Shown one piece after another: positions 12,652-37,206 of a DNA stretch of 64,000 bases (within the stretch, counting starts at the first letter, position 1; every line of letters begins with the position of its first letter). The DNA is from Agromyces albus (GTDB lineage Bacteria; Actinomycetota; Actinomycetes; Actinomycetales; Microbacteriaceae). The notes beneath the pieces are model-generated. The model was not told where the DNA came from, searched no databases, and saw only the letters and a list, made by a program, of their open reading frames with translations. The DNA lies in contig NZ_JAUSWX010000001.1 in NCBI RefSeq assembly GCF_030815405.1, positions 3,968,001-4,032,000 of the forward strand. The letters are read 5' to 3'. The translations under genes and the position numbers were made by a program.

Positions 12652-12672
12652 CGTTGACTCCTTCGAGGCGAT

Positions 12673-12704
12673 TTGCATGTGACGCTAGCGTCAGTTCCTA
12701 CCGT
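12673..12704 (+). promoter_or_regulatory. MerR-type promoter with TGACGCTAGCGTCA dyad
   Basis: TTGCAT (12673-12678) and TACCGT (12699-12704) are 20 bp apart. The spacer contains the perfect palindrome TGACGCTAGCGTCA (12680-12693), displaced slightly toward the -35, as in the MerR-VOC promoter at 5504. It drives the aldo/keto reductase as a leaderless message with its ATG 7 nt after the -10. Confidence 0.6.
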
Positions 12705-12711
12705 GATGGTC

Positions 12712-13626: not shown

Positions 13627-13677
13627 ACGCGCGCTCACCCGCTAGCGCCGACAGCACAACGTCCTGGCCTCGTACAC

Positions 13678-15990: not shown

Positions 15991-17529
15991 GTGAAGACCC
16001 ACCATTTGCGCACACACCGGAGTGACGAGAACCTCGCTCGCGAGGGCCAGCTCGCCTGGCAGTTGGCCGGCGTCGCGGTCGATCCAGTCGAGCTCGACGA
16101 CGGCGTCGTCGACATGGTCGTCAACCGGGTCATCGACAATGCTGCGGTCGCGGCGGCCTCCCTCGGGCGCGGGCCGGTGGTGTCGGCGCGGAGCCAGGCA
16201 CTCGCCCACCCGGTTTCGATCGGGGGCGACGGCGCCACCGTCTTCGGCGCGGATGCCGCGCGCCGCACGTCTCCCGAGTGGGCGGCATGGGCGAACGGGG
16301 TCGCCGTGCGCGAGCTCGACTTCCACGACACGTTCCTCGCCGCCGAATACTCGCACCCCGGCGACAACATCCCGCCGATCGTCGCCGTCGCCCAGCACCT
16401 CGCCGCGAGCCGCGGGCTCAGCGGCCGTGACATCGTGCGGAGCATCGCCACCGGCTACGAGGTGCAGATCGACCTCGCGAAGGCGATCTCGCTGCACGAG
16501 CACAAGATCGACCACGTCGCGCACCTCGGTCCGTCGGCCGCCGCGGGCATCGGCACGCTCCTCGGCCTCGACCAGGAGACGATCTTCCAGGCGATCGGCC
16601 AGGCGCTGCACACCACCACGGCGACGCGCCAGTCCCGCAAGGGCGAGATCTCGACGTGGAAGGCGCACGCTCCAGCGTTCGCCGGAAAGATGGCCGTCGA
16701 AGCGGTCGATCGCGCGATGCGCGGGCAGACGAGCCCCGTGCCGATCTACGAGGGTGAAGACGGCGTGATCGCCTGGCTGCTCGGTGGCCCGGATGCCACG
16801 TACGAGGTGCCGCTGCCCGACGAGGGCGAGTCGAAGCGCGCCATCCTCGACTCGTACACGAAGGAGCACTCGGCGGAGTACCAGGCGCAAGCGTGGATCG
16901 ACCTCGCGCGCAAGCTCCACGAGGAGTACCCGCTCATCCTCGACGACCCCGAACGCATCGAGTCGATCGTGCTGCACACCTCGCACCACACGCACTTCGT
17001 GATCGGCTCGGGAGCGAACGACCCGCAGAAGTACGACCCCGACGCCTCGCGCGAGACGCTCGACCACTCGATCCCCTACATCTTCGCGGTCGCCCTGCAG
17101 GACGGCGCATGGAACCACGCCGACTCCTACTCGCCCGAGCGGGCCCACCGCGCCGACACGGTCGAGCTGTGGAAGAAGGTCACGAGCGTCGAAGACGCCG
17201 AGTGGACGCGCCGCTACCACTCGCTCGACATGGCCGAGAAGGCGTTCGGCGGCCGGGTCGTCATCAAGCTCGCCGACGGCGGCGAGATCGTCGACGAGAT
17301 CGCCGTCGCCGACGCGCACCCGCTGGGTGCCCGTCCGTTCGGTCGCGAGCAGTACGTGCAGAAGTTCCGCTCGCTCGCCGAGTGGGTGCTCGAGGAGGCA
17401 GAGATCGAGCGGTTCCTCGAGCTCGCGCAGCGCCTGCCCGAACTCGGCCCCGACGAACTCGGCGGCCTCACGATCACGGCGGCGCCCGGTGCGCTCGTCG
17501 GCATCGACATCCCGCAGGGCCTCTTCTAG
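15991..17529 (+). CDS. prpD: 2-methylcitrate dehydratase (MmgE/PrpD family)
   Basis: A 512-residue PrpD. Family segments include [43 protein letters not shown]-like [38 protein letters not shown] and the C-terminal [19 protein letters not shown]. It dehydrates 2-methylcitrate to 2-methyl-cis-aconitate in the methylcitrate cycle. The start is the GTG at 15991, 7 nt after TAGCGT (probable leaderless start). The next genes, prpB and prpC, complete the pathway, so the assignment is supported by both sequence and context. Confidence 0.93.
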
Positions 17530-17582
17530 CCCCGGCGGCCCCTTCGCCCGGCGCGGCTAGGGTGGATCGGAGGAGGCCCACC

Positions 17583-18482
17583 ATGCTCTACGCCCAGACC
17601 CCGCCTGCCGAGAAGCGCCGGCTCTTCCGCGAACGGCTCGCGAGCGGCGAGGTCCTCCGGTTCCCGGGTGCGTTCAACCCGCTCTCCGCGCGGCTCATCG
17701 AGCAGAAGGGCTTCGAGGGCGTCTACATCTCGGGCGCCGTGCTCTCGGCCGACCTGGGGCTGCCCGACATCGGCCTCACGACGCTCACCGAGGTCGCGGG
17801 CCGGGGCAAGCAGATCGCCCGGATGACCGAACTGCCCGCGATCATCGACGCCGACACCGGGTTCGGCGAGCCGATGAACGTCGCTCGCACCGTGCAGGAG
17901 ATGGAGGACGCGGGCCTCGCGGGCCTCCACATCGAAGACCAGGTCAACCCGAAGCGGTGCGGTCACCTCGACGGCAAGCAGGTCGTCGACGAGTCCACGG
18001 CCCTGCAGCGCATCCGTGCCGCCGTCGACGCCCGCCGCGACCCGAACTTCCTCATCATGGCGCGCACCGACATCCGTGCCGTCGATGGCCTTCCCGCCGC
18101 GGTCGACCGCGCGAAGAAGCTCGTCGATGCGGGCGCCGACGCGATCTTCCCCGAGGCGATGGCCTCGCTCGAGGAGTTCGCCGCGATCCGCGCCGCCGTC
18201 GACGTGCCGCTGCTCGCGAACATGACCGAGTTCGGCAAGAGCGACCTCTTCACGGTGCAGCAGCTGGCGGATGTCGGCATGAATCTCGTGATCTGGCCCG
18301 TGTCGCTGCTGCGGCTCGCGATGGGCGCCGCCGGGCGCGGACTCGACGAGCTCGAGGCATCCGGATCGCTGGGCGGCATGCTCGGCACCATGCAGCACCG
18401 CGCCGACCTCTACGAGCTCATCGACTACGAGGGCTACAACCGCTTCGACACCTCGATCTTCAACTTCCGCGTCGCTCGCTGA
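17583..18482 (+). CDS. prpB: methylisocitrate lyase
   Basis: A 299-residue TIM-barrel lyase splitting 2-methylisocitrate to pyruvate and succinate. The active-site loop reads NPKRCGHLDGK: KRCGH is the methylisocitrate lyase signature (KKCGH marks isocitrate lyase). IIDADTGFGEPMNVARTV supplies metal ligands, and ARTDIRAVDG and LANMTEFGKS are also typical. The ATG at 17583 follows GGAGGAGG 6 bp upstream, with a TAGGGT -10 about 20 bp before that, so the gene may have its own promoter as well as read-through from prpD. Confidence 0.95.
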   Translation: MLYAQTPPAEKRRLFRERLASGEVLRFPGAFNPLSARLIEQKGFEGVYISGAVLSADLGLPDIGLTTLTEVAGRGKQIARMTELPAIIDADTGFGEPMNVARTVQEMEDAGLAGLHIEDQVNPKRCGHLDGKQVVDESTALQRIRAAVDARRDPNFLIMARTDIRAVDGLPAAVDRAKKLVDAGADAIFPEAMASLEEFAAIRAAVDVPLLANMTEFGKSDLFTVQQLADVGMNLVIWPVSLLRLAMGAAGRGLDELEASGSLGGMLGTMQHRADLYELIDYEGYNRFDTSIFNFRVAR

Positions 18483-18570
18483 CCGAGCAGGCGCGCGGCG
18501 GAGCGCGCCGTGGTCGTAGGCTGGGGGAGCGGTCGCGCCGCAGCGGCCGCATCGTCACGCGAGGAGCACG

Positions 18571-19707
18571 ATGAGCGATCAGCAGGGGGCAGAGCCCGTC
18601 ATCTACAAGGGCCTGGCTGGAGTGCCGGTCGACTACACGGCCGTGTCGATGGTCAACTCCGACACGAACTCGCTGCTCTACCGCGGGTACCCGGTGCAGG
18701 AGCTCGCGGCATCCGTCACCTTCGAAGAGGTCGCCTACCTGCTCTGGTACGGCGAGCTTCCCGATGACGAGCAGCTTGCCGCGTTCGAGGAGCTCGAGCG
18801 CTCGTACCGCGGCCTCGACCACGAGGTGAAGCGCATCATCGACGAGATCCCGCTCACGGCGCACCCGATGGACGTGGTGCGCACCGCCGTGAGCGTCATC
18901 GGCGCGAGCGACCCGAACACGCCCGACGAATCGCGCGAGGCCAGCCTCGACAAGTCGATCCGCCTGTTCGCGAAGCTCCCCTCGATCATCAGCTACGACC
19001 AGCGCCGCCGCCACGACCTCGAGTTCGTGGAACCCCGCGCCGACCTCGGCTATTCGGCGAACTTCCTCTGGCAGGCATTCGGCGAAGCTCCCGAGCTCGC
19101 GGTCGTCAACGCGTTCGACGTGTCGATGATCCTCTACGCCGAGCACTCCTTCAACGCCTCGACCTTCACGGCACGCGTCATCACGTCGACGCTCGCCGAC
19201 CTGTACTCCGCGGTCACCGGTGCGATCGGCGCACTCAAGGGGGCGCTGCACGGCGGGGCGAACGAGGCGGTCATGCACGCATTCGGCGAGATCGGCACCG
19301 CCGACCGCACCGAGGCGTGGCTCGACGCCGCGCTCGCCGAGAAGCGCAAGATCATGGGCTTCGGGCACCGCGTCTACAAGAACGGCGACTCACGGGTGCC
19401 CACCATGCGCGACGCGATGGAGCGGATGCTCGAGCACTACGATCGCCGCGACCTGCTCGAGCTCTACGAGGCGCTCGAGAACGGCATGGCCGAGCGCAAG
19501 AACATCAAGCCGAACCTCGACTACCCCACCGGCCCGACCTACCACGTCATGGGCTTCGACACCGAGACGTTCACGCCGCTCTTCGTGGCGAGCCGCATCA
19601 CGGGGTGGACGGCGCACATCATGGAGCAGGCGGCGTCGAACGCCCTCATCCGGCCGCTCTCCGTCTACAACGGCCCCGACGAACGGCACGTCCCGGCGAA
19701 GGGCTGA
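18571..19707 (+). CDS. prpC: 2-methylcitrate synthase (citrate synthase family)
   Basis: A 378-residue citrate-synthase-fold enzyme condensing propionyl-CoA with oxaloacetate. Catalytic segments are present: EHSFNASTFTARV (first His), GALHGGANEAVM (second His), GFGHRVYKNGDSR, and FVASRITGWTAHIMEQ. The N-terminus lacks a long regulatory domain, consistent with the short Gram-positive/PrpC type. Position downstream of prpD and prpB favours methylcitrate over citrate synthase. The ATG at 18571 follows GAGGAG. A TAGGCT hexamer near 18516 may be an additional promoter. Confidence 0.92.
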   Translation: MSDQQGAEPVIYKGLAGVPVDYTAVSMVNSDTNSLLYRGYPVQELAASVTFEEVAYLLWYGELPDDEQLAAFEELERSYRGLDHEVKRIIDEIPLTAHPMDVVRTAVSVIGASDPNTPDESREASLDKSIRLFAKLPSIISYDQRRRHDLEFVEPRADLGYSANFLWQAFGEAPELAVVNAFDVSMILYAEHSFNASTFTARVITSTLADLYSAVTGAIGALKGALHGGANEAVMHAFGEIGTADRTEAWLDAALAEKRKIMGFGHRVYKNGDSRVPTMRDAMERMLEHYDRRDLLELYEALENGMAERKNIKPNLDYPTGPTYHVMGFDTETFTPLFVASRITGWTAHIMEQAASNALIRPLSVYNGPDERHVPAKG

Positions 19708-20368: not shown

Positions 20369-21139
20369 TTACGACGGCTCTCGCGCGCCTGCGACGCCGG
20401 CGTTGAAGTCCTCGAGCACCCGGAGCGACGCCTTGACGGTCGCGGCGAGTATTGCTTCGCCCTTGGCGGCGGTTGCCGTGCTCGGGTCGCCGAACACGCC
20501 ACTCTGCGAGAACGGGTGCAGTTGCATTGGGAGCGTACCGAAGTCGCTCGGGAACTCCGGGTACTCCGCGACATACCGCTCAGGCAGCACCTGTTCGGGC
20601 GCGATCGCGAGCATGATCGAGGTCTCGATCTCCTCGGCGTGGTTGAGGCCGGGCGCGGCGGGCGCGCTCTCGCGCAGCTCGTCGATGGCGGCATCCATGC
20701 CCGGGTAGTCGAGGGAAATGGCGGCGATCACGCCATCGGCGTTGAGGGCGCGCATCGCGGCGTGCAGCGGCATCCGGTTGCCCCAGTCGCCGTTGACGAT
20801 GACGAAGCCGCGAGCACCGGATGCCGCGAGCGCACGTCCGAGGTCGACCGCGATCGCCGTCACCGTGGCCGGCGAGAGCGAGAGCGTGCCCGGGTAGCCC
20901 GCGTTGTTCCAGGTCTCCCCGTAGTGCACCGGCGGCAGGAGTACGGCGTCGAGGCGCTCGGCGAGGCGACGCGCCACCTCGGCGGCGGTGACCGTGTCGG
21001 TGCCGAGCGGCAGGTGCGGGCCGTGCTGCTCGAGCGCGCCGAACGGCAGGATCGCGAGGCCGGAGCCACCGGCACCGCCAGCGCCGCCGGCGAGGTGCGC
21101 CGCGACATCCGTCCACGACGCGTTCACGGCCTCGATCAC
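20369..21139 (-). CDS. creatininase-family amidohydrolase
   Basis: A 256-residue creatininase-fold protein. LPFGALEQHGPHLPLGTDT places metal ligands Glu37, His39 and Asp48; YGETWNNAGYPGTLSLSP and FVIVNGDWGNRMPL follow, and NHAEEIETSIMLAI provides the later His and Glu. The family includes creatinine amidohydrolase, formamidopyrimidine deformylase ArfB and other cyclic-amide hydrolases, so the substrate is open. The GTG start overlaps the upstream amidohydrolase stop (GTGA). An Ala/Gly-rich insertion at residues 18-27 is unusual. It is the last gene of a four-gene minus-strand operon with LacI, a GATase-like protein and a deaminase-type amidohydrolase. Confidence 0.85.
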   Translation of the reverse strand: MIEAVNASWTDVAAHLAGGAGGAGGSGLAILPFGALEQHGPHLPLGTDTVTAAEVARRLAERLDAVLLPPVHYGETWNNAGYPGTLSLSPATVTAIAVDLGRALAASGARGFVIVNGDWGNRMPLHAAMRALNADGVIAAISLDYPGMDAAIDELRESAPAAPGLNHAEEIETSIMLAIAPEQVLPERYVAEYPEFPSDFGTLPMQLHPFSQSGVFGDPSTATAAKGEAILAATVKASLRVLEDFNAGVAGAREPS

Positions 21140-22560
21140 GGCGCGTAGTCCTGGATCGCGCTGCCGTGGGACGTGTCGGTGAGCTCGGGGATGCGCCGGT
21201 TCAGCTCCTCGATGGCCGCGCTCACGTCGATCGTCGTGAGCCGCCCGTTCTCGACGACGACCCGGCCGTCGACGAGCACCGTGCGCACATCGCTCGACTT
21301 GACACTCAGGACGAGCGCTGCCGCGAGGTCGTGCATCGGCTGCATGTGGGGGCCCATGGTGTCCATGAGCACGATGTCGGCGCGGTATCCGGGGCGCAGC
21401 TGTCCGAGCCGGTCGCCCAGGCCGAACGCGTCGGCGCTCTGCCGCGTGGCGAGGTCGAGGGCATGTTGCGAGGTGAGCCACGTCGCGTCGCTGTGCACGT
21501 CCTTCTGCACGAGCGAGAGGAACCGCATGCTTTCGAGCACGTCGAGGGTGTTGTGCGAGGCGGGTCCGTCGGTGCCGACGCCCACGGTGATGCCGGCGTC
21601 GTGCAGCATCCGCACCGGGGTTCCGCCCGATTGGGCGTGCTTCAGGTAGACCTTGCTGCAGGATGCCACGGCCACTCGATCGGCGAATGGCACGAGCCAC
21701 TGGAGGTCGTCTTCGATGATGCCGGCGCCGTGGGCGATGATCGCCCCGGTCTCGAGGATGCCCGTGTCGTGCAGCACCTGGATCGGTGTGACGCCGCGAC
21801 GGCCGAGGCTCGACTCCGTCTGGGCGGGCGCCTCGGAGGCGTGGATGTGGGTGCGCACGCCGAGGCGGCGGGCGTGCTCGGCAGTCTGCTCGAGGTCGCC
21901 GTCGTCGACCGTGTAGGTGGCGTGCGGGCCCATCGCGGTCGTGATGCGACCGTCGGCGGTTCCGTTCCAGCGCTCGGCGAACTCGGCCGACCTGCGGATG
22001 CCCTTCTCGCCCTCCGAGGAGAAGAACGTCGAGGCGAGGAGGGCGCGTGCCCCGCTCGCCTCGACGGCTTCGGCGATGCGGTCGGTCGCGAAGTAGTGGT
22101 CGGCGAAGCTCGTCACGCCGGCGAGGAGCATCTCGCCGATCGCGAGCTGCGCGCCGAGGGCGACGTCACGATCGGTGAGGTTCACCTCCATCGGCCAGAT
22201 GTGTTTGTTGAACCACTCGTTCGTCGGCACGTCTTCGGCCGAGCCGCGGAACATCGTCATCGGCGAGTGTGTGTGCGAGTTCATGAGGCCGGGGATCGCC
22301 ACGTGTCCGCGCCCGTCGATCACGGTCGCGCCCGCGAGCGACGCCGGGTCGACCTCGCTCGTCGGCACGACCCAGGCGATCGCGCCGTCGGCGATGCCGA
22401 TCGCGTGGTCGGGCAGGAAGACGGCGGTACCCCGCGCCTCGAGATCGTCTCGCGGCAGCGAGGGGTAGTCGGATGCAGGGCGGGTGGTGTGTGAGAGCAC
22501 GGTCGCTCCCGTGATCACGGTGTCGATGCGGGTGGCGTCGATGGTGGCGGCGTCGGTCAC
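21136..22560 (-). CDS. amidohydrolase, SAH/guanine deaminase or TrzN-like
   Basis: A 474-residue metal-dependent hydrolase of the cytosine-deaminase-like superfamily. Metal and catalytic residues are visible: NSHTHSPMTMFRG (His96, His98), HIHASE (His240, Glu243), AHGAGI (His277) and GTDGPASHN (Asp331). The first motif and overall length match the S-adenosylhomocysteine/guanine/isoxanthopterin deaminase and triazine hydrolase branch. It probably removes an amino or similar group from an N-heterocycle; the exact substrate is unknown. Both ends use GTGA overlaps with neighbours, so translation is tightly coupled. Confidence 0.87.
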   Translation of the reverse strand: MTDAATIDATRIDTVITGATVLSHTTRPASDYPSLPRDDLEARGTAVFLPDHAIGIADGAIAWVVPTSEVDPASLAGATVIDGRGHVAIPGLMNSHTHSPMTMFRGSAEDVPTNEWFNKHIWPMEVNLTDRDVALGAQLAIGEMLLAGVTSFADHYFATDRIAEAVEASGARALLASTFFSSEGEKGIRRSAEFAERWNGTADGRITTAMGPHATYTVDDGDLEQTAEHARRLGVRTHIHASEAPAQTESSLGRRGVTPIQVLHDTGILETGAIIAHGAGIIEDDLQWLVPFADRVAVASCSKVYLKHAQSGGTPVRMLHDAGITVGVGTDGPASHNTLDVLESMRFLSLVQKDVHSDATWLTSQHALDLATRQSADAFGLGDRLGQLRPGYRADIVLMDTMGPHMQPMHDLAAALVLSVKSSDVRTVLVDGRVVVENGRLTTIDVSAAIEELNRRIPELTDTSHGSAIQDYAP

Positions 22561-23312
22561 GGCAGTTCCTCTCGGGCGAGCCAGCGGATGGTGCGGTCGA
22601 AGAGCATGCCGTAGCCGCTCCAGGTCAGGAAGGCGGGAGGCGCCCAGTGCGGCGCGAGGTCTGAGGTGAACGCGGCGGCGCGGCCCGCACGGTACTGGCC
22701 GACAGCGAGCAGCGGATGCCCCGCGCACGTCGCGAGGCCGAGGGCCGTCTCCTTCAGCTTCACCTCGTTGAGCCCGAGCAGGGCGGGCCACTCCGCGTCG
22801 AGGCCGTGCGTGATCGGATGCGCCGTGGCGACGCGGGGGACCATCCCCGACGGAAGCTCGACCCGGTCGTCGCGGTCGAGGACCGTGACCGGCAGTGCCT
22901 CTGCGAGCGGCGTGCGGCCCCAGCGGGCCTTGGCGTCGATGCCCGAGAACGTCATGTAGCCGCCGACCATGAAGAGTCCTCCGCCGCGCTCGGTGAAGGC
23001 GCGCAGCACCTCCGTGCGGTCGACGTCGGCGACCGACGCGGAAAAGGTCTGCGGCGGCAGTTGGAACGTGTTCGCACCGACATCCGAGATCACGACGACG
23101 TCGGCGAGCGATCGCAGCAGTTCGACCGTGGTGGGAATGCGCGTCGGCACCTCGTGTGCCGGCACGTGGGTGACCTCGTGCCCGTGCGCCTCGAGGGCCG
23201 TTACGAACTCCGAACCGCCGAGCGTGTACTCGGACGTCGTGAACGAGTCGAAGCCCTTCTGGTGGATGGAGTGGACGAACCAGGATTCGCCGATGAGCAG
23301 GACACGGGCCAC
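22557..23312 (-). CDS. putative glutamine amidotransferase-like protein (PF07090 type)
   Basis: A 251-residue flavodoxin-like/class-I glutamine-amidotransferase-fold protein. The segments VLLIGESWFVHSIHQKG, DVVVISDVGANTFQLPPQTF, GGGLFMVGGYMTFSG and AAFTSDLAPHWAPP are typical of the PF07090 group. I see no clear nucleophilic cysteine at the elbow, so amidotransferase chemistry is not established; it may bind ligand or act as a scaffold. It lies 9 bp downstream of the LacI gene, and its stop overlaps the amidohydrolase start. Confidence 0.75.
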   Translation of the reverse strand: MARVLLIGESWFVHSIHQKGFDSFTTSEYTLGGSEFVTALEAHGHEVTHVPAHEVPTRIPTTVELLRSLADVVVISDVGANTFQLPPQTFSASVADVDRTEVLRAFTERGGGLFMVGGYMTFSGIDAKARWGRTPLAEALPVTVLDRDDRVELPSGMVPRVATAHPITHGLDAEWPALLGLNEVKLKETALGLATCAGHPLLAVGQYRAGRAAAFTSDLAPHWAPPAFLTWSGYGMLFDRTIRWLAREELP

Positions 23313-23321
23313 AGGGCTCCT

Positions 23322-24341
23322 TCAGTTGGTGTGGGCTGGTGGGGCGGTGCTCTCGCGCACGACGAGCTCGACGGGGCAGCGCTCGAGCTCGCCGGGATCG
23401 CGGCCGGCGATCACCTCGAACAGCGTCGCGGTTGCGAGCCGGCCGATCTCGTCGATCGGCTGGCGCACGGTGGTGAGCGGCGGCGAGACCCGCTGCGCGA
23501 GCGGCACGTCGTCGAATCCGACGACCGAGAGGTCGCGCGGCACGACGAGGCCGTGATCGCGTGCGGCGTCGAGCACGCCGAACGCCGCGAGGTCGTTCGA
23601 CGCGAAGATCGCGGTCGGGGCGCCGGCGCCCCCGCGCGCGAGCAGCTTCGCGGTGCGGTGGTAGGCGACCTCCTCGGAGAAGTCGGCGTCGACAACGAGG
23701 GCATCAGGGTAGATCGAGTGGAATCCTGCGACCCGCTCCTCGGCCGAACGCAGCCCGCGCCGGCCGGTGAGTACGGCGACGTCGCGGTGCCCGAGCGAGG
23801 CGAGGTGTTCGCCGGCGAGGCGTCCGCCCTGCTCGTGGTCGGCCGCCGCGAGGGGAATGCCATCGAGCCCCTCGACCCACTCGTCGGCGAGCACGATCGG
23901 ATGGCTCTGCGCGAGCTTGCTGAGGCGATCGTCGTGGCGGAGTGCGCCGGCGACGTAGATCAGGCCGTCGATCGACCTGGAGCGGAGGAGGTTGAAGTAG
24001 CGCGCCTCGCGGGATGAGGCACCGCTCGAGCCGCCGAGCACGACTCCGTAGTCGGCCTCGTCGGCCGCGCGTTCGACGCTCGCGGCGAGGCGTCCGAAGA
24101 AGGGATCGGAGACATCGGGCACGACGAGTCCGAGCATGAGGGACTTGCCAGCATGCAGGGCTCTCGCCCCCGAGTGCGGCACGTAGCCGAGGTGTTCGAT
24201 CGCCGCCTGGATCCGTTCCGCAGTCTCGGGGCTCACCGGGCGCTTCGCCGACAATGCGTGCGACACCGTCGTCATGCTGACCTGCGCGACCCGCGCCACA
24301 TCGCGGATCGTGGCCGCGGGCTTGCGGGTGTCGTCGCTCAT
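23322..24341 (-). CDS. LacI-family transcriptional regulator
   Basis: A 339-residue LacI/PurR-type regulator. The helix-turn-helix is TIRDVARVAQVSMTTVSHALS with the hinge helix after RPVSPETAERIQAAIEHLGYVP. The periplasmic-binding-protein core follows, with LGLVVPDVSDPFFGRL and SVVGFDDVPLAQRVSPPLTTVRQP. The start at 24341 has TAGCAT 6 nt upstream (leaderless). First gene of its operon and divergent from the BMP ABC transporter, so it likely controls both units from the 197-bp gap. The core resembles sugar/purine-sensing members. Confidence 0.9.
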   Translation of the reverse strand: MSDDTRKPAATIRDVARVAQVSMTTVSHALSAKRPVSPETAERIQAAIEHLGYVPHSGARALHAGKSLMLGLVVPDVSDPFFGRLAASVERAADEADYGVVLGGSSGASSREARYFNLLRSRSIDGLIYVAGALRHDDRLSKLAQSHPIVLADEWVEGLDGIPLAAADHEQGGRLAGEHLASLGHRDVAVLTGRRGLRSAEERVAGFHSIYPDALVVDADFSEEVAYHRTAKLLARGGAGAPTAIFASNDLAAFGVLDAARDHGLVVPRDLSVVGFDDVPLAQRVSPPLTTVRQPIDEIGRLATATLFEVIAGRDPGELERCPVELVVRESTAPPAHTN

Positions 24342-24452
24342 GCCTGCATGCTAGCCGTCCACTGAACGTTTTGTGCACTCGGCAACAATCTGAGGGCGAT
24401 TCGGCACCTCCCTGACGTGACTTTCCCGTAACACTGGGGCAGTTGCCCGAAT

Positions 24453-24470
24453 TGTTTCGTGAATGAAACA
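24453..24470. promoter_or_regulatory. candidate operator dyad in the LacI/BMP divergent gap
   Basis: TGTTTC-GTGAAT-GAAACA is a 6+6 dyad with a 6-bp centre, midway between the LacI gene and the substrate-binding-protein gene. A second AT-richer site, TGAACGTTTTG, lies near 24363, close to the LacI promoter. Both are plausible regulator sites; neither matches a textbook LacI operator with a central CG exactly. Confidence 0.4.
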
Positions 24471-24538
24471 TCAGCGAAATCACGCAAAGCCTTTTGCGGC
24501 GTAACTTCTCGAAGACCCCCACAGCAGAAGGAGTCAGT

Positions 24539-25585
24539 GTGTCCAGTTCAGCAACCTCCCGAGTGATCTCGGTCGGCGGCGCAGTGCTCGCCGCCACCCT
24601 CGTGCTCTCCTCGTGCTCCGGCCAGACGGCCGCCAGCCAGCCGAGCGGCGACCCCGATGCGCCGAAGATCGCCATGATCTACGGCACCACCGGCGACTTC
24701 TCGTTCATGGACAGCGCCTACAAGGGCTTCACCGACGCGCAGGACGAGTACGACTTCACCCCGATCGACCTCTCGAGCCCGAACTCCGACGACTTCCAGG
24801 ACCGTATCGATCTCGCCATCTCAGAGGGCGCGGGCCTCGCGATCGGCATCGGGTTCCAGTACGCCACGCCCATGGCCGAGACCACCGACCACCCCGACAC
24901 CGCCTTCGTCGCGGTCGACATCGACAAGGGCACCACGATCCCCGACGTCACGACCATCTCGTTCGCGGCCGAGCAGTCGTCGTACCTCGTCGGCGTCGCC
25001 GCGGCACTCGCCTCGACGACGGGGCACGTCGGGTTCATCGGCGGCGTCGACCAGCCCAGCATCCAGAACTTCTTCGTCGGCTACGAGGCCGGAGCGAAGT
25101 CGGTCAATCCCGACATCGTCGTCGACAGCACCTACCTGTCGCCGCTCGGCGACTTCACGGGCTTCTCCGACCCCACCAAGGGCAAGGAGGCGGCCGCCTC
25201 GATGTACGCGGGCGGAGCCGACGTCATCTACGCGGCGGCCGGCGGATCGGGCCTCGGCGTGTACGAGCAGGCTCTCGCGTCGAGCACGCCGGATGCGCAG
25301 GTGTGGGCGATCGGCGTCGACGGCGACGTGTACCAGCAGGTCGACGAGTCGATCAAGCCGTACATCCTCACCTCGGCGATCAAGAACGTCAACGTCGCCG
25401 TGGAGGACAGCATCGCCGCCTTCCTCGACGGAACCCTCGAGCCGGGCGAGCAGACCTTCGACCTCTCGAACGACGGCGTCGGGTACTCGACGAGCGGCGG
25501 ATTCCTCGACGAGTTCGAGGCGCAGATCGAAGAAGCCAAGCAGGCCATCATCGAGGGCGCCATCACGGTGCCGAGCGCCCTGTAG
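24539..25585 (+). CDS. BMP-family ABC transporter substrate-binding lipoprotein
   Basis: A 348-residue extracytoplasmic lipoprotein of the BmpA/PnrA (PF02608) family, which generally bind purine nucleosides. The signal peptide ends in LVLSSC with the lipidated Cys26. Family motifs are KIAMIYGTTGDFSFMDSAYKGF, ISFAAEQSSYLVGVAAALAS, VGFIGGVDQPSIQNFFVGYEAG and VIYAAAGGSGLGVYEQ. The GTG start at 24539 is set by AAGGAG 6 bp upstream. It heads the plus-strand operon SBP, ATPase, permease, permease, amidohydrolase, the same transporter order as nupNOPQ (guanosine uptake) of Bacillus subtilis. Confidence 0.92.
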   Translation: MSSSATSRVISVGGAVLAATLVLSSCSGQTAASQPSGDPDAPKIAMIYGTTGDFSFMDSAYKGFTDAQDEYDFTPIDLSSPNSDDFQDRIDLAISEGAGLAIGIGFQYATPMAETTDHPDTAFVAVDIDKGTTIPDVTTISFAAEQSSYLVGVAAALASTTGHVGFIGGVDQPSIQNFFVGYEAGAKSVNPDIVVDSTYLSPLGDFTGFSDPTKGKEAAASMYAGGADVIYAAAGGSGLGVYEQALASSTPDAQVWAIGVDGDVYQQVDESIKPYILTSAIKNVNVAVEDSIAAFLDGTLEPGEQTFDLSNDGVGYSTSGGFLDEFEAQIEEAKQAIIEGAITVPSAL

Positions 25586-25604
25586 AGCGCGGTCGGGCGC
25601 GCAC

Positions 25605-27158
25605 ATGGTGGAGCGGGAAGAGCTGGTGCGACTCACCGGCATCGTCAAGAGGTTCGGCACCTTCGTCGCCAACGATCGCATCGACCTGTCGGTGAAGGCC
25701 GGCACGGTGCACGCGATCGTCGGGGAGAACGGCGCGGGCAAGTCGACCCTCATGAAGATCCTGGCCGGTGAGGAGAACCCCGACGAGGGCACGATCGAGA
25801 TCGCGGGCGTCGGGCGCGCGTTCCGGTCCCCTCGGGACGCGCAACGTGCCGGTGTCGGCATCGTGCACCAGCATTTCCTGCTCGCCGACGCGCTTCGCGT
25901 GTGGGAGAACGTCGTGCTCGCCGACGAGCCGGGGTCCGCGCTCCGGCTCGACACCGTCGCCGCGCGTCGCCGCGTGGCCGACCTCGCCGCGGCCAACGGC
26001 TTCTCGGTCGATGTCGACGCCGTCGTGCGCGACCTCGGCGTCGGGGCGAGGCAGCGGGTCGAGATCCTCAAGGTGCTCTACCGCGACGCGCGCATCATCA
26101 TCCTCGACGAGCCGACCGCGGTGCTCGTGCCGAGCGAGGCGCAGTCGCTCTTCGCGGCGATGCGCACGTTCACCGAGGCCGGGGCATCCGTCATCTTCAT
26201 CTCGCACAAGCTCGACGAGGTGCTCGACTTCGCCGACGAGATCACCGTCATCCGCGCCGGCGAGGTCGTCGGGCACACGACGCCGGCCGCGACGAGCGCA
26301 CGCGAACTCGCCTCGCTCATGGTGAAGGTCGCGATGCCCTCGGTGGCACCTCGCGTGGAACCGCCCGGTGAAGAGATCGTGCTCGAGGGCCGACGGCTCA
26401 CGGTCAGCGACGACGGCGAGGTGCCCGCGCTCGACGACGTGTCGTTCTCGGTTCGATCCGGCGAGATCCTCGGCGTCGCCGGAGTCGAGGGCAACGGCCA
26501 GTCCGAGCTCATGCTCGCCGTGCTCGGACGCGTTGCGGCACGCGGCACGGTGTCGGTCGGGGGAGCGGATGTCTCGGGGCTGTCGACCGAGCAACGGCGC
26601 GGCGTCGGCATGGCGTACATCCCCGAAGATCGCCACCACGACGGGCTCGTGCTCTCGATGCCGCTCCGCGAGAACGCCGCACTCGGCCATCACTCCCGGC
26701 CCCCGGTCAAGCGCGGGCCATGGTTCAGCCGGTCGGGCGCGGCGGCGGTCGCCGAGCGGGTCATCGCACGATTCGACGTTCGCGGCGGCGGGCCGATGAC
26801 CCTCGCGTCGGCCTTGTCGGGCGGCAACCAGCAGAAGTTCATCGTCGGACGCGAGCTCGGCTCCGATCCGCGCGTGCTCATTGCGGCGCATCCGACCCGT
26901 GGTGTCGACATCGGCGCGCAATCGGCGGTGTGGGCCGAACTCATCGAGGCGCGTGACCGCGGGCTCGGCACGCTGCTCATCTCGGCCGACCTCGACGAGT
27001 TGCTCGCCCTCTCCGACCGATTGCTCGTGTTCTATCGCGGCACGATCGTGGGTGAACTCGACCCTCGCGCGACCGACGCGGAGACCCTCGGCGAATACAT
27101 GACCGGCGTGCGCAGCGACCGCATCGCGGCGCCGATCGACGGGAAGGCGGCCGAATGA
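25605..27158 (+). CDS. nucleoside-type ABC transporter ATP-binding protein, duplicated
   Basis: A 517-residue ATPase with two ABC domains in tandem. Domain 1 has Walker A VGENGAGKSTLMKILAGEENPDEG, then IVHQHFLL and Walker B IIILDEPTAVL. Its signature region reads LGVGARQRVEI. Domain 2 has GVEGNGQSELM in place of a canonical Walker A and the signature LSGGNQQKFIVGREL, as in RbsA/NupO-type importers where the second site is degenerate. IPEDRHHDGLVLSMPL is also typical. The ATG at 25605 lies 19 bp after the lipoprotein stop, and its stop overlaps the first permease (ATGA). Confidence 0.92.
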   Translation: MVEREELVRLTGIVKRFGTFVANDRIDLSVKAGTVHAIVGENGAGKSTLMKILAGEENPDEGTIEIAGVGRAFRSPRDAQRAGVGIVHQHFLLADALRVWENVVLADEPGSALRLDTVAARRRVADLAAANGFSVDVDAVVRDLGVGARQRVEILKVLYRDARIIILDEPTAVLVPSEAQSLFAAMRTFTEAGASVIFISHKLDEVLDFADEITVIRAGEVVGHTTPAATSARELASLMVKVAMPSVAPRVEPPGEEIVLEGRRLTVSDDGEVPALDDVSFSVRSGEILGVAGVEGNGQSELMLAVLGRVAARGTVSVGGADVSGLSTEQRRGVGMAYIPEDRHHDGLVLSMPLRENAALGHHSRPPVKRGPWFSRSGAAAVAERVIARFDVRGGGPMTLASALSGGNQQKFIVGRELGSDPRVLIAAHPTRGVDIGAQSAVWAELIEARDRGLGTLLISADLDELLALSDRLLVFYRGTIVGELDPRATDAETLGEYMTGVRSDRIAAPIDGKAAE

Positions 27159-28258
27159 TCCGGCGCATCGTGCTCACCCTCGGCGGCCCGGTCGTGTCGG
27201 TGCTGCTCGCCCTGCTCGTGACGACGCTCTTCCTCAGCCTCAGCGGCTACTCCGCGGCATCCGCCTACGAGGTCATGTGGAACTACGGCATCGAGCCGGC
27301 CTCGCTCGTGTCGGCACTGAACAACGCGGTGCCGCTCTACATCGCGGGGGTCGCCGCCGCGTTCGCCCTGCGGATGGGGCTCTTCAACATCGGCATCGAT
27401 GGCCAGTACCGCGTCGCCGCGCTCGCGGGTGCCGTCGCGGCCGCGCAGCTCCCGTTCGATCTCGCCGTGCGGCTGCCGCTCTCGCTGCTGGTCGGCTGCG
27501 TGACCGGCGCACTCTGGGCGCTCGTGCCCGCGCTGCTCAAGGTGTACCGCGGCGTGAACGAGGTCATCACCTCGATCCTCATGAACGCGATCGCGACGAC
27601 CGTGGTGGCCATCCTGCTGGCGGACGTCTTCCGTGCAGGCGGCGGTCAGGACACGGGCACCGCGATCATCGACGAGAACGGCGCGATGCCGGTGCTCGTC
27701 GACCTCGGCATCGGCAATCGCACCGCGATCTCGGGTTTCCTCGTCGTCGCGATCGTGCTCGGCGTGCTGTTCTACCTGGTGCAGTACCGCACGGTGTTCG
27801 GTTTCACGCTGCAGGTCGCCGCACGTTCTCCCGAGGCTGCGGAGTCCGCCGGCATCAGGGTGAAGCGCCGCATCATCTGGGCGATGGTCGGCTCGGGCGC
27901 GATCGCGGGCCTCATCGGCCTGCCGCACGTGCTCGGCACGGCGCACCGCTTCGACGGCACCCTGCCGATCGACCTCATGGTCACGGGACTCGCGGCCGCG
28001 CTCCTCGGCAGGATGCACCCGATCGGCATGGCCTTCGGCGCGTTCCTGCTCGCCTTCGTCGAGCGCAGCTCACAAGTGCTCGGCCTGGTGCAGCTGCCGA
28101 CCGAGGTCGGGTCGGTGTTCATGGCGGTGATCCTCCTGAGCTCGGCGATCGGCTACTGGTTCACCGAGAAGGCCGACCAGCGCATCGCGCTCTGGCGGGC
28201 GATCAAGGCGAGACGACGGATCCCGCTCGCCGCCGATGATGCGGGGGCCGCACGATGA
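27155..28258 (+). CDS. ABC transporter permease (BPD_transp_2, nucleoside type)
   Basis: A 367-residue inner-membrane permease with about nine hydrophobic spans. The motif AAFALRMGLFNIGIDGQYRVAALAGAV after helix 2 and VNEVITSILMNAIATTVV are hallmarks of the BmpA-linked permeases (NupP-like). FTLQVAARSPEAAESAGIRVKRRIIWAMVGSGAIAGLIGL corresponds to the coupling-helix EAA-like loop. The ATG overlaps the ATPase stop, and its own stop overlaps the next permease. It forms the heterodimeric channel with the product of the following gene. Confidence 0.9.
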   Translation: MIRRIVLTLGGPVVSVLLALLVTTLFLSLSGYSAASAYEVMWNYGIEPASLVSALNNAVPLYIAGVAAAFALRMGLFNIGIDGQYRVAALAGAVAAAQLPFDLAVRLPLSLLVGCVTGALWALVPALLKVYRGVNEVITSILMNAIATTVVAILLADVFRAGGGQDTGTAIIDENGAMPVLVDLGIGNRTAISGFLVVAIVLGVLFYLVQYRTVFGFTLQVAARSPEAAESAGIRVKRRIIWAMVGSGAIAGLIGLPHVLGTAHRFDGTLPIDLMVTGLAAALLGRMHPIGMAFGAFLLAFVERSSQVLGLVQLPTEVGSVFMAVILLSSAIGYWFTEKADQRIALWRAIKARRRIPLAADDAGAAR

Positions 28259-29535
28259 CCGACACCATCACGCAGGCTGCAGCGCGCCCGTCGCCGACGA
28301 GACTCGCCCCCGGACGGGCGGCGCTTCGCACCGGGCTCCGCTGGACGCTGCTCGGATTCGGGCTCATCGTCATCGCCCAGTACGTCGCCGATGCCCCGGG
28401 AATCGCGGCCTCCTCCACCTGGGGATCCGCGCTGCGCCTCACGGTGCCGATCGCCGTCGTGGCGATGGGCGGCCTCTACTCCGAGCGCGCGGGCATCATC
28501 AACGTCGGCCTCGAGGGCATGATGATCGGCGGCACCTGGATGGCGGGCCTGTTCGGCTGGTTCTGGGGGCCCTGGGCCGCGCTCGGCGGCGGCATCGTCG
28601 GCGGGCTGATCTTCGGACTGCTCATGGCGCTGCTCTGCATCGAGATGGGGCTCAACCAGCTCATCGTCGGCGTCTCGATCAACGTCATCGCGGCGGCGCT
28701 CGCCCGCTTCATGGCCGACATCGTCTTCAACGGGGTCGACGGCGGCACCATCGCGCACTCGCCGAGAATCGGCGGGTCCCTTCCGACGATCGGCATTCCG
28801 TTCCTCTCGGGCGGATACGGCACGTTCGACCTCACTCGTGTCATGGAGGCGTCGGGCCTGCCGGTCGTCGCGCAGCTCGGCGGTATCGTCGGCGGCCTCA
28901 CTCGCGACGTGTCGATCACCGCCGTCATCGGGCTGCTGCTGATTCCGGCCACCGCGTACGTGCTGTGGCGCACCCCTTTCGGGCTCCGGTGGCGCGCGGC
29001 GGGCGAACGGCCGGCGGCGCTCCAGGCGCTCGGCGGCGACGTGCACCGCACACGCTGGCTCGCCGTGCTCATCGGCAGCGGCATGGCAGGCTTCGCCGGC
29101 GGATACCTCGTGCTGATCTCGCAGGGCTATGTCGAGCACCAGACGGCCGGCCGCGGCTTCATCGGACTCGCGACGCTCATCTTCGGCAACTGGATGCCAT
29201 CGGGCGTGTTCCTCGGGTCATCGCTGTTCGGCTTCAGCGACGCGGTCGGGCTCGGCCGGCCCGCGACGTTCCGGGCGCTCCTGTTCATCCTCGCGATCGT
29301 CTTCGTGGTGGTCGGCATGACCCGCATCATGAAGGGCGAGCGGCGCGGCGGCATCGCCCCGCTCGTGCTGGGCGTCGTGCTCGTGCTCGTCTTCCTGTTC
29401 GTGCCGCTGCCGAGCGGCCTCGCCACGGCCGCGCCGTACCTCGTGACGCTCGCGGTGCTCGTCGTCGCCGGTGTCACCATGCGTCCGCCCGCTGCGCTCG
29501 GCCACGTGTTCCCACGAAAGAACGCGCGGTCGTGA
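28255..29535 (+). CDS. ABC transporter permease (BPD_transp_2, nucleoside type)
   Basis: A 426-residue partner permease with about ten membrane spans. PIAVVAMGGLYSERAGIINVGLEGMMIGGTWMAG is the typical second-permease (NupQ-like) motif, and GLRWRAAGERPAALQALGGDVHRTRWLAVLIGSGMAGFAGGYL is its cytosolic coupling region. It starts with ATGA overlap on the previous gene and ends in GTGA overlap with the amidohydrolase. The C-terminus is extended by about 60 residues with two extra hydrophobic stretches compared with short family members. Confidence 0.9.
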   Translation: MTDTITQAAARPSPTRLAPGRAALRTGLRWTLLGFGLIVIAQYVADAPGIAASSTWGSALRLTVPIAVVAMGGLYSERAGIINVGLEGMMIGGTWMAGLFGWFWGPWAALGGGIVGGLIFGLLMALLCIEMGLNQLIVGVSINVIAAALARFMADIVFNGVDGGTIAHSPRIGGSLPTIGIPFLSGGYGTFDLTRVMEASGLPVVAQLGGIVGGLTRDVSITAVIGLLLIPATAYVLWRTPFGLRWRAAGERPAALQALGGDVHRTRWLAVLIGSGMAGFAGGYLVLISQGYVEHQTAGRGFIGLATLIFGNWMPSGVFLGSSLFGFSDAVGLGRPATFRALLFILAIVFVVVGMTRIMKGERRGGIAPLVLGVVLVLVFLFVPLPSGLATAAPYLVTLAVLVVAGVTMRPPAALGHVFPRKNARS

Positions 29536-30743
29536 GGTCTCGGGTGCTCGCGAACGTCGAGCTGTGGGATGGCGAGTCCGCCCAGGGGCCGCGCACGATC
29601 GAGTGGAGTGGCGGCGGCGGCCGCGACGATTCGATCGTCGCCGTGCGGCCGAGCGACGCCGCCGAGGCACCCGCCTTCGCCGTCATCCCCGGTCTCATCG
29701 ACACGCACGTGCACCTCATCGGCCACGCCGGCGAGGGGCGCGTCGACTTCCTCACGTGGCCGCTCACCACGCGACCCGAGGAACAGGTGCTGCACGGGCT
29801 CGCGCACGCGCGGCAAGCGGCCCGAGGCGGCGTTACGACCCTGCGTGACCTCTCCGCCGATGACATCCAGTTCTCGCTCGCCGGGGCGCTCGACGCCGGC
29901 ATCGTCGAGGGACCGCGCGTGCTCGCGCACGGCATGGTGAGCATGACCGCGGGCCACGGTGACCTGTTCGTGCCGCCTGCCGTCGCGGCGCGCAAGCCCG
30001 TCGCCGACGGCGTCGACGAGTGCCGCAAGCTCGTGCGCCAGTGGGCACGGGCGGGCGCCGACGGCGTGAAGATCGCCACGAGCGGCGGCGTGCTGTCGGT
30101 CGGCGACAAGAGCTCGTGGCGCAACCACACGCGGGCCGAGATCGCGGCGATCGTCGACGAGGCGCACGCGCTCGGCATGCTCGTGGCCGCGCACGCCCAC
30201 ACCGAGGAGGGCATCGGCATCGCCCTCGACGAGGGCGTCGACTCGATCGAGCACGGCACGCTCGTTTCGCGCGCCCAAGCCGAGCGCATCGCCGCTCGAG
30301 GCGTGAGCATCGCGCCCACCCTGCTCATCAACGACCGGATCGCCGCGGGCGAGTTCGGCGTGACACCCGAACAGGCGGCGAAGGCGAGTGAGCTCGTCGC
30401 CGAGCGCGATGCGCTCATGCGCTCGGCGGCCGATGCCGGCGTCGACTTCGTGCTCGGCACCGATGCCAATGGCCATCACGTCGGCTTCGGCGACCAGATG
30501 GCGGAGGTGCGCGCGATGGCCTCGACGCTGGGATGGACCGCCGAGCGTGCCCTGCAGGCGGCGACCACGCGGGCCGCCCGAGCGATCGGCCGAGCCGATT
30601 CCCTCGGCCGGGTGCGTGAGGGGTTCGCTGCGGACTTCGTCGTCGTGCGGGGCCGGCCGTGGCGCGACATCCGTGACCTCGACACTTCCGGCATCGTCGC
30701 GGTCGTCTCGCGAGGGCGCGTGGTCGCGGGCACGCTGCCCTGA
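29532..30743 (+). CDS. amidohydrolase, imidazolonepropionase/prolidase-like (COG1228)
   Basis: A 403-residue metal-dependent hydrolase. IPGLIDTHVHLIGH gives the HxH pair, GVKIATSGGV a candidate carboxylated lysine, VAAHAHTEEG and DSIEHGT two more ligands, and FVLGTDANGHH the catalytic Asp. The architecture is that of the Xaa-Pro dipeptidase/imidazolonepropionase-related branch, distinct from the deaminase-like enzyme encoded divergently. It is the last gene of the BMP transporter operon (GTGA overlap with the permease), so it probably acts on the imported compound or its product. No signal peptide, hence cytosolic. Confidence 0.85.
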   Translation: MRSRVLANVELWDGESAQGPRTIEWSGGGGRDDSIVAVRPSDAAEAPAFAVIPGLIDTHVHLIGHAGEGRVDFLTWPLTTRPEEQVLHGLAHARQAARGGVTTLRDLSADDIQFSLAGALDAGIVEGPRVLAHGMVSMTAGHGDLFVPPAVAARKPVADGVDECRKLVRQWARAGADGVKIATSGGVLSVGDKSSWRNHTRAEIAAIVDEAHALGMLVAAHAHTEEGIGIALDEGVDSIEHGTLVSRAQAERIAARGVSIAPTLLINDRIAAGEFGVTPEQAAKASELVAERDALMRSAADAGVDFVLGTDANGHHVGFGDQMAEVRAMASTLGWTAERALQAATTRAARAIGRADSLGRVREGFAADFVVVRGRPWRDIRDLDTSGIVAVVSRGRVVAGTLP

Positions 30744-35337: not shown

Positions 35338-36129
35338 TCAGCTGGCGCGGCGCATGGACCGCACGCCCACGAACACGCCGAGCGCACACGTCGCCACCGC
35401 AGCGAGGATGCCGCCGAGCACGGCAGGGGCGCCGAAGTCACCCGCGAGCAGTGCGCGCTCGGCGCCGACGAGGTAGCTGAGCGGGTTCACGGCCGCCGCG
35501 ACCTGCATCCAGTCGGGACCGTCTTCGAGCGGAAGCAGCATGCCCGAGAGGATCATCAGCGGGAACAGCAGCGTCTGGTGCACCATCCAGAACATCCAGT
35601 CGCGGTTGCGGCACGCGAGGGCGAGCGAGTAGCTCAGCGCGCCGAAGCCGATGCCGAACACCGCGAGCACCGCGAGGCCGGAGACGAGCCCGAACGGGTC
35701 GACGCTGAATCCGAACGGCACCGCGACGAGCACGACGATCGTGCCCTGGATCACGAGCGGCACGACCTCCTTCAGGGCGCGGCCGACGAGGAGCGCGCTG
35801 CGGGAGAGCGGCGCCACGAGCGTGCGCTCGTGCGAACCGGTCTGCATCTCGAAGAGGAGGTTCGCGCCGGTCGAGGCCGTGCCGAAGAGCGCGACCATCA
35901 CGAGGATGCCGGGCACGAACCACTGCAGCGTGCCCGCGACGTCGCCGCCCGCGGCACCGACGAGCAACGGCCCGAAGAGCCCGAGGAAGACGAGCGGCTG
36001 CACAAGGCTGAACATGACGCTGAACGGGTCGCGCACGAGCGGACGGGACTCGCGCACGAAGACGCTCGCGGTGTCGCGCACGAATCCGGTCGGGCGAGCG
36101 AATGTCTCAGGGGAAGTGGTGGTGGACAT
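35338..36129 (-). CDS. ABC-2 permease, daunorubicin-resistance (DrrB) type
   Basis: A 263-residue integral membrane protein with six spans. VFVRESRPLVRDPFSVMFSLVQPLVFLGLFGPLL is the DrrB-like N-terminal motif, and MILSGMLLPLEDGPDWMQVAAAVNPLSYLVGAERALL the conserved C-terminal segment of this exporter group. The ATG at 36129 follows AAGGAG. It pairs with the upstream ATPase gene (52-bp gap). Probable efflux of a hydrophobic compound, substrate unknown. Confidence 0.9.
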   Translation of the reverse strand: MSTTTSPETFARPTGFVRDTASVFVRESRPLVRDPFSVMFSLVQPLVFLGLFGPLLVGAAGGDVAGTLQWFVPGILVMVALFGTASTGANLLFEMQTGSHERTLVAPLSRSALLVGRALKEVVPLVIQGTIVVLVAVPFGFSVDPFGLVSGLAVLAVFGIGFGALSYSLALACRNRDWMFWMVHQTLLFPLMILSGMLLPLEDGPDWMQVAAAVNPLSYLVGAERALLAGDFGAPAVLGGILAAVATCALGVFVGVRSMRRAS

Positions 36130-36181
36130 TGGGTGCTCCTTCGTTGTGGTCGAGCGTGTCGGTGGTCGAGTGGCGCCGGCG

Positions 36182-37183: not shown

Positions 37184-37206
37184 GTCCACAGTCTTTCGAA
37201 GCATCC

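Follow-up and report, generated by a model that had tools for sequence, protein, structure and literature searches.

A LacI-linked importer and hydrolase gene set in Agromyces albus, probably a purine-nucleoside module

Results

The gene set and its layout

The window, a stretch of 64,000 nucleotides from Agromyces albus (contig NZ_JAUSWX010000001.1, positions 3,968,001 to 4,032,000), contains at 20369-30743 nine intact genes in two divergent operons around the gene for a LacI-family regulator, an arrangement that an earlier reading of the bare sequence (the original prediction) had described and that is borne out here. The minus strand carries LacI, a GATase1_like protein (GAT), an amidohydrolase (AMH1), and a creatininase-family protein (CRN), while the plus strand carries a BMP-family lipoprotein (BMP), an ABC ATPase, two permeases (PM1 and PM2), and a second amidohydrolase (AMH2). 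Pfam matches of the locus proteins lie far above cut-off. Among the NCBIfam matches listed (the best 25 of 38 for AMH1 and the best 25 of 189 for the ATPase), no cut-off is reached by AMH1, AMH2, CRN, LacI, or the importer proteins, and the same search with GAT gave no match. The features, with lengths in amino acids (aa), are as follows.

20369..21139, minus strand: CRN, creatininase-family hydrolase, 256 aa (PF02633, 204.8 bits)
21136..22560, minus strand: AMH1, COG0402-type (TRZ/ATZ, MTA/SAH-deaminase-like) amidohydrolase, 474 aa (PF01979, 187.5 bits)
22557..23312, minus strand: GAT, GATase1_like protein, 251 aa (PF07090, 288.6 bits)
23322..24341, minus strand: LacI-family regulator, 339 aa (PF00356, PF13377)
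24364..24375, plus strand: operator-like site GAACGTTTTGTG beside the LacI start (corresponding sites in relatives)
24484..24497, plus strand: operator-like palindrome GCAAAGCCTTTTGC upstream of the importer operon (position, conservation, fewest mismatches genome-wide)
24539..25585, plus strand: BMP-family substrate-binding lipoprotein, 348 aa (PF02608, 166.3 bits)
25605..27158, plus strand: double ABC ATPase, 517 aa (PF00005, two stretches)
27155..28258, plus strand: PM1, BPD_transp_2 permease (PF02653, 127 bits)
28255..29535, plus strand: PM2, BPD_transp_2 permease (PF02653, 90.7 bits)
29532..30743, plus strand: AMH2, COG1228 prolidase/carboxypeptidase-like amidohydrolase, 403 aa (PF01979, 150.2 bits)

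Distribution of the two operons

With GAT as bait, a search of the genome collection returned 27 loci, which were compared by tblastn of the nine proteins and by gene clustering. Gene calls in the relatives' loci are approximate at their starts, L044 was dropped from the locus table as the same locus as L042, and in L052, a stretch with large uncalled gaps, GAT itself was uncalled. The original prediction hung on the two operons occurring together elsewhere, and it withstood the check: both halves are present in 11 of 13 loci from Microbacteriaceae (L016, L018, L019, L020, L022, L023, L024, L025, L030, L040, and L042) and in none of the 14 others. The genera concerned are Agromyces, which we take to belong to the Microbacteriaceae, Herbiconiux, Subtercola, and Agreia, plus one further member of the family (membership was looked up for Herbiconiux, Subtercola, Agreia, and Galbitalea). 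The remaining two Microbacteriaceae loci, L017 and L021, lack AMH2 in the fetched stretch, and CRN is present in L017. Neither AMH2 nor CRN was found in the stretches of the 14 other loci, from Cellulomonas, Actinotalea, Modestobacter, and Streptomyces, several of which run into the end of a contig. Seven of the 27 loci have all eight genes other than the regulator.

Among relatives the gene set is sporadic. GAT occurs in 13 of 150 at E<=1e-20 and AMH2 in 8 of 150 at E<=1e-60, the A. albus genome included in both counts. A single-sequence search with CRN found 13 of 297 genomes of the order at E<=1e-25 (own genome included), of which only G263 (71%) has the same subfamily. A CRN profile at E<=1e-60 found 3 of 394 genomes of the class, namely the own genome, G290, and G514, the latter two with sugar-operon homologs, and an AMH2 profile at E<=1e-100 found the own genome alone among 396 of the phylum. 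The Streptomyces loci hold GAT, a COG0402 enzyme, a purine nucleoside phosphorylase (PNP), and mostly a BMP importer, without AMH2 or CRN in the fetched stretch.

Sporadic distribution and a related set in Streptomyces would suit a system that takes up and destroys the nucleoside antibiotics of neighbours, whether for resistance or as food; amide bonds are common in such antibiotics, and an ABC-2 type exporter pair (ABC2_membrane and ABC_tran, with a weak DrrA C-terminal match) lies at 35338-37189, 4.6 kb beyond the locus. The exporter pair stands outside both operons, however, and a full importer under LacI control looks catabolic, so that we judge this explanation quite improbable.

AMH2 travels with CRN and a deaminase

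Nineteen distinct loci carry AMH2 (the window, L016, L018, L019, L020, L022-L025, L030, L040, L042, L043, L077, and L093-L097). CRN accompanies it within the fetched stretch in 16 (not in L018, L095, or L096), and an adenosine- or adenine-deaminase-type gene does so in 17 (not in L095, a 6-kb contig, nor in L096). The deaminase itself varies: it may be AMH1, AMH1b, an adenosine deaminase (ADA), or ADA plus an adenine-deaminase-like protein. CRN and AMH2 occur without GAT in L077, L093, L094, and L097. The first is a minimal version, ADA-AMH2-PM2-PM1-ATPase-BMP facing LacI-CRN, with neither GAT nor AMH1 within 20 kb. L093 and L094 show LacI-AMH1b-CRN-AMH2 beside another BMP importer; the tblastn match to CRN in L094 comes in two pieces in different frames, and the gene may be broken or misread. 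L097, an additional locus in a genome already carrying the main one, holds a BMP importer, an adenine-deaminase-like protein (344.4 against a cut-off of 472.5), ADA, a cytidine-deaminase-fold protein, AMH2 (58%), a PCC-domain protein, and CRN (55%). Since different deaminase families interchange, they probably act on a common and simple compound, for instance adenosine; and since they vary beside AMH2 and CRN, this constant pair would be expected to make or unmask an adenosine-like nucleoside.

The PCC-domain (PF03479) protein adjoins AMH2 in two genomes (L097, 10486-10944; L095, 4282-4761), and in L095 a PucR-type regulator accompanies the two. Where CRN is absent in L018, a 466-aa protein (12292-13692) gives weak matches to Creatinase_N (25.7 bits, cut-off 22) and M24 (22.1 bits, below its cut-off of 23).

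Purine-nucleoside context

The 27 neighbourhoods contain an ADA-family gene in 11 cases, a PNP cluster in 17, and nucleoside hydrolases in 4 (L026, L029, L032, and L036); at least one of the three occurs in 23, all as raw counts. Cluster labels such as ADA and PNP rest on one or a few profile-tested representatives each. A deaminase-type gene, ADA or COG0402, is present in 26 of the 27 if AMH1 itself is included, and AMH1 was not counted as independent purine evidence. DeoD-type PNP exceeds the PRK05819 cut-off of 230 in L033 (262.5), L019 (253), and L024 (261.3), and ADA exceeds the aden_deam cut-off of 216.55 in L029 (249) and L097 (251.1); the ADAa proteins of L021 (410.6) and L077 (368.6) fall below the 412 of their best model. 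In ten loci (L017, L018, L019, L021, L022, L023, L024, L025, L040, and L043) a further operon lies next door, with PNP, a BPD_transp_1/NMT1-type importer, LacI, and ADA and/or AMH1b.

According to Pfam, none of the nine locus genes encodes xanthine dehydrogenase (XDH), uricase, or allantoinase. The earlier statement that nucleosidase and allantoinase are lacking is right for the locus only, as relatives' neighbourhoods hold the DeoD-type PNP or nucleoside hydrolases just counted, and the own genome encodes, elsewhere, two ADA-family genes, one PNP-family gene, and uricase, XDH, and allantoinase together at 2.563-2.571 Mb. One ADA stands with the PNP and a BMP importer in a nucleoside locus, L098. 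Because this locus and the uricase/XDH/allantoinase cluster exist elsewhere in the genome, the products of the gene set have an outlet. We consider it likely that the gene set is a purine-nucleoside module.

Three GAT loci, L045, L036, and L026, are islands in which five to eight reading frames of the nucleoside hydrolase family, one of them a fragment, lie near SDR, GAT, and PTE-like genes; by eye, L026 and L036 also contain a gene pair resembling PsuG/PsuK.

A different use of purines would be hydrolytic opening of the ring of a purine, a pterin, or another N-heterocycle, for example by a xanthine route of the clostridial type, for whose enzymes no genes were known in 2012. The deaminases near AMH2 and CRN would then deliver hypoxanthine or xanthine, the creatininase-family reaction is itself the opening of an imidazolone-type lactam, and L095 has its PucR-type regulator. 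A route with gene-less steps of this kind is that of C. acidurici, for which genes for xanthine amidohydrolase and formiminoglycine formation were not found, according to excerpts of the report (PMC3519856). Against ring opening, uricase and XDH are already present in 8 of 9 carrier genomes tested (G000, G031, G049, G007, G085, G070, G263, and G104, not G062), as in 1 of 3 non-carriers (G010, not G004 or G008); the nine genes include no decarboxylase or formiminotransferase family; and AMH2 is carboxypeptidase-like. Hydrolytic xanthine degradation, considered as the principal explanation, is weakened by the eight carriers, and we regard ring opening in general as unlikely. Pterins, triazines, and creatinine as substrates gained no support.

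A nucleoside-class importer with an altered motif

The importer genes encode a PF02608 lipoprotein, a double ATPase, and two BPD_transp_2 permeases in one operon, the component set of a BMP-type importer and, we believe, of the BMP/PnrA-type nucleoside ABC importer NupNOPQ. The closest solved structure to the lipoprotein is 7x0r, with TmpC (2fqw) also matching. A stretch that we take to contact the ligand reads GDFSFMDSAY in 11 lipoproteins of the cluster (the window and ten others, L044 being a duplicate of L042), GDHSIQDSAY in L077, and GDRSFFDSAY in the 7 Streptomyces members among the 11 of another BMP cluster. The genome's other importer, in L098, has DDKSFNQ, and the solved 7x0r and 6yab have D-x-SFNQ. 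That importers only about 30% identical share the Gln-to-Asp change hints at a common, non-standard ligand.

The two amidohydrolases

AMH1 has 76-96% identical copies in 10 distinct loci, and its closest solved relatives are 4dyk, 4gbd, and also 4f0r; it is predicted to be a purine nucleoside deaminase. For AMH2, the original prediction of ring opening by a prolidase/imidazolonepropionase-like hydrolase loses ground, as carboxypeptidases and dipeptidases, rather than ring-opening enzymes, are closest among the solved structures: Cc2672 (3mtw), 3be7 (an Arg carboxypeptidase), the trum-mut chain (9kov), 2qs8 (an Xaa-Pro dipeptidase), and other amidohydrolases. Its six metal ligands (H59, H61, K180, H221, H241, and D311) are invariant in 6 of 6 rows of alignment A3 and 10 of 10 rows of A5, as are H142, H221, and H223. 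The last three were paired with ochratoxinase His191, His287, and His289 from motif and spacing rather than from structure; Lys-His-His-Asp spacing is 41, 20, and 70 in AMH2 and 41, 20, and 71 in ochratoxinase. In plasmid homologs of AMH2 beside pyridine-type genes (L055 and L056), Leu replaces H223. The AlphaFold model of AMH2 is poor (pLDDT 62) and too weak to use.

Excerpts of one study place the substrate carboxylate near His191, His287, and His289 in ochratoxinase docking, and report that relatives cleave dipeptides and N-acyl or N-formyl amino acids, with loss of the C-terminal amino acid, and that ochratoxinase itself cleaves Z-amino acids (PMC11342369). Related M38 enzymes hydrolyse Xaa-Pro and N-acyl-prolines, again by the excerpted text (PMC11511702), and in the excerpted part of a preprint bile salts lose taurine, but not glycine, to an enzyme of the amidohydrolase superfamily (PMC13081902).

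CRN and GAT

CRN belongs to the creatininase family (PF02633, 204.8 bits against a gathering cut-off of 31.3) and falls under the NCBIfam cut-offs of MftE, creatininase, and IolN, scoring 124.2 against 235 for creatininase (EC 3.5.2.10). Aligned with creatininase, it keeps E37, H39, D48, and H167, and the NGHYEN segment becomes NGDWGN, which is found in 14 of 14 CRN rows from 13 distinct loci; L097 has NGDYGN. CRN represents a distinct subfamily that probably still binds metal. A 39-46% identical homolog without the NG[HD] motif lies in a ribose-type-importer operon (L078, L079, and L104). In all three this operon includes GntR-like, FGGY-kinase-like, and PTE-like genes; a KDPG-aldolase-like gene joins them in L078 and L079 and was not seen in L104, and kinase and aldolase were profile-tested in L079 only. 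The own genome has a second creatininase-family gene with the motif NGHGGN (L080, 8356-14821, at about 3.906 Mb), near an nATP/nPM-like ABC importer and, by eye, an amidohydrolase-like gene.

Family membership of CRN, together with the dipeptidase relatives of AMH2, the oligopeptide-type importer of L096, and the weak creatinase/M24-type protein where L018 lacks CRN, would fit a pathway for creatinine, hydantoins, or small peptides that has nothing to do with nucleosides. The creatininase score is far from its cut-off, however, no creatinase or hydantoinase family occurs among the nine genes, and ADA, PNP, or nucleoside hydrolase occurs in 23 of 27 neighbourhoods; such a pathway is very improbable.

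GAT keeps the class I glutamine amidotransferase fold, so that the description "GATase-like" is right as to fold and wrong as to the catalytic Cys: the nucleophile-elbow position, placed by family rather than by residue-level superposition, holds Tyr in 18 of 19 sequences and Phe in one, with no Cys, and is also Tyr in STM1381 and STM3548. By its sequence GAT is not a glutaminase. Its role would most likely be on the ribose side. A literature search with the PF07090 family names gave no function among the matches listed, only single mentions of STM1381 in one paper and of GATase1-like in three. In Arthrobacter and Rhodococcus plasmids (L055, 1466-16735; L056, 13-14591) a GAT-LacI-ribokinase-PRPP synthetase gene set stands with an LLM monooxygenase, nicotinate phosphoribosyltransferase, an HAD phosphatase, and an AMH2-like amidohydrolase; the whole presumably is a pyridine-degradation cluster, in which the ribosyl gene set is unexplained. 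Rhizobial plasmids (L057, 2078-11445; L058, 2037-10311) share a conserved operon of LacI, a ribose-type importer, PTE-like, GAT, BtpA/SgcQ, TenA, and ribokinase.

GAT homologs elsewhere, beside ribokinase/PfkB, nucleoside hydrolase, PTE-like genes, and ribose-type importers, and the CRN homolog in a sugar-type operon with an FGGY kinase, a PTE-like gene, and a KDPG-aldolase-family gene could both belong to a second, ordinary purine nucleoside system, in which AMH1 would deaminate adenosine or deoxyadenosine, the base would go to salvage, and GAT, CRN, and AMH2 would handle the sugar half or side products. We find this somewhat doubtful, as the genome already holds a nucleoside locus with importer, ADA, and PNP, the nearest solved relatives of AMH2 act on amino-acid amides, and the lipoprotein motif is changed.

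The control region

Both operator-like sites, GAACGTTTTGTG and GCAAAGCCTTTTGC, lie in the 197 bp that separate LacI from BMP. Sites of the same type lie in the corresponding gaps of L016, L020, L023, L024, L025, L040, and L043; L023 and L024 have them, yet have no LacI gene between the operons. Other palindromes are found in L018, L019, L022, L030, L042, and L077, which carry another LacI type (c19), and L018 and L019 carry both types. Genome-wide, the window site has the fewest mismatches. The operator pattern at up to 2 mismatches gave 11 strand matches, including the 2 at the window site, and the reversed control gave 13; because the remaining matches are at control level, no further regulon targets can be claimed. 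Within the window, the pattern with 3 mismatches gave 2 matches against a shuffle mean of 3.25, not above chance, and for GAACGTTTTGTG 12 of 100 shuffles likewise gave a match. The case for the sites is one of position and conservation. These sites fit a role of LacI as a local regulator of both operons, most likely a repressor.

Directly adjoining the locus, at 15991-19707, MmgE/PrpD, isocitrate-lyase-superfamily, and citrate-synthase genes stand in a methylcitrate-cycle-like row, shared only with L016 among the clustered loci.

Discussion

The best explanation, which we put forward tentatively, is that LacI controls a module that takes up and breaks down a purine nucleoside carrying an amide-, urea-, or hydantoin-type mask. 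The BMP importer would take the masked nucleoside in. CRN would open a five-membered lactam or hydantoin in a creatininase type of reaction, and AMH2 would cleave an amide or urea, releasing an amine that bears a carboxylate, for example an amino acid. AMH1, joined or replaced in relatives by ADA or AMH1b, would deaminate the freed adenosine-like nucleoside, from which PNP, encoded beside the module in relatives and elsewhere in this genome, would yield hypoxanthine that the separate XDH-uricase-allantoinase cluster could then degrade. That CRN and AMH2 act on the conjugate before deamination is possible, although we would not count on it.

Several observations weigh against this explanation. 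AMH2 and CRN are not always needed, because the Streptomyces loci do without both, and in L096 AMH2 (57%) lies beside an oligopeptide-type importer with no deaminase. Four loci (L016, L020, L030, and L042), like the window, have no ADA-family gene, PNP, or nucleoside hydrolase in the stretch, and the deaminase-neighbour counts are raw counts. The exchange of ADA for COG0402 enzymes is weaker evidence because both are, as we understand it, different families of one superfamily. CRN has lost His120 and Glu122 of the NGHYEN segment, which we take to be metal-site residues of creatininase. GAT, the bait and the widest marker, is unaccounted for by the proposed route. The carboxylate reading of AMH2 draws on family position and spacing, and an aminoacylase activity of ochratoxinase is denied in the abstract of the study cited above (PMC11342369). 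The substrate and all enzyme activities are predictions.

A more specific form of the masked-nucleoside explanation concerns the universal tRNA nucleoside N6-threonylcarbamoyladenosine (t6A) and its cyclic hydantoin form, ct6A. In a dedicated catabolic route CRN would open the hydantoin of ct6A, turning it into t6A, and AMH2 would hydrolyse the urea of t6A, giving adenosine, CO2, and threonine, after which AMH1 or ADA would produce inosine for phosphorolysis. This explains CRN, AMH2, and the deaminase in order and leaves GAT out; we hold it to be distinctly unlikely. Searches of the literature for the gene set, for its enzymes, or for t6A catabolism returned nothing on point among the matches listed, and the word threonylcarbamoyladenosine is absent among the 12 of 78 listed for t6A catabolism. 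If the t6A route is real, bacteria would have a way to feed on modified tRNA nucleosides. More generally, should AMH2 and CRN prove to unmask conjugated nucleosides, the locus would illustrate how soil bacteria recover modified nucleosides from RNA turnover. Three hydrolase-type proteins, a Cys-less GATase1_like protein, a creatininase with an altered metal site, and a carboxypeptidase-like amidohydrolase, are here tied to purine nucleosides, and their roles thereby become testable.

Comparison with known systems

The proposal of one conserved import-plus-hydrolysis system of the nucleoside/purine class, matching no named pathway, is supported: the module is real, conserved, and probably co-regulated, and it corresponds to no textbook pathway, without being a new kind of system. 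Its lipoprotein matches PF02608 and TmpC (2fqw) of the PnrA/TmpC type of Treponema, whereas it has GDFSFMDSAY in place of the D-x-SFNQ of 7x0r and of the genome's other importer, and the importer is linked to hydrolases. AMH1 shares the HxH, HIHAxE, AHG, and GTDG motifs of the COG0402 MTA/SAH/5'-deoxyadenosine deaminases but lies far under the equivalog cut-offs (best row 325.4 against 609, 5'-deoxyadenosine deaminase 260.1 against 522, among the best 25 of 38). AMH2 matches the L-Arg/Lys carboxypeptidase Cc2672 at E 6.9e-47 and ochratoxinase (4c5y) at 8e-34, is below the cut-off of the Xaa-Pro dipeptidase model (216.2 against 500), and sits in a nucleoside-type operon. Compared with creatininase, MftE, and IolN, CRN keeps half of the metal site and lacks NGHxEN. 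GAT is 43% and 39% identical to the PF07090 proteins STM1381 and STM3548 (structures 3soz and 2gk3; TM 0.83 and 0.85), the family's structures having been released in 2006 and 2011. The nucleoside islands of the Cellulomonas and Streptomyces type have the same GAT, with an ADA or COG0402 enzyme beside it in 13 of 14, many with a BMP importer and many with PNP or nucleoside hydrolase; they differ in having no AMH2 or CRN and an importer lipoprotein that is only about 30% identical.

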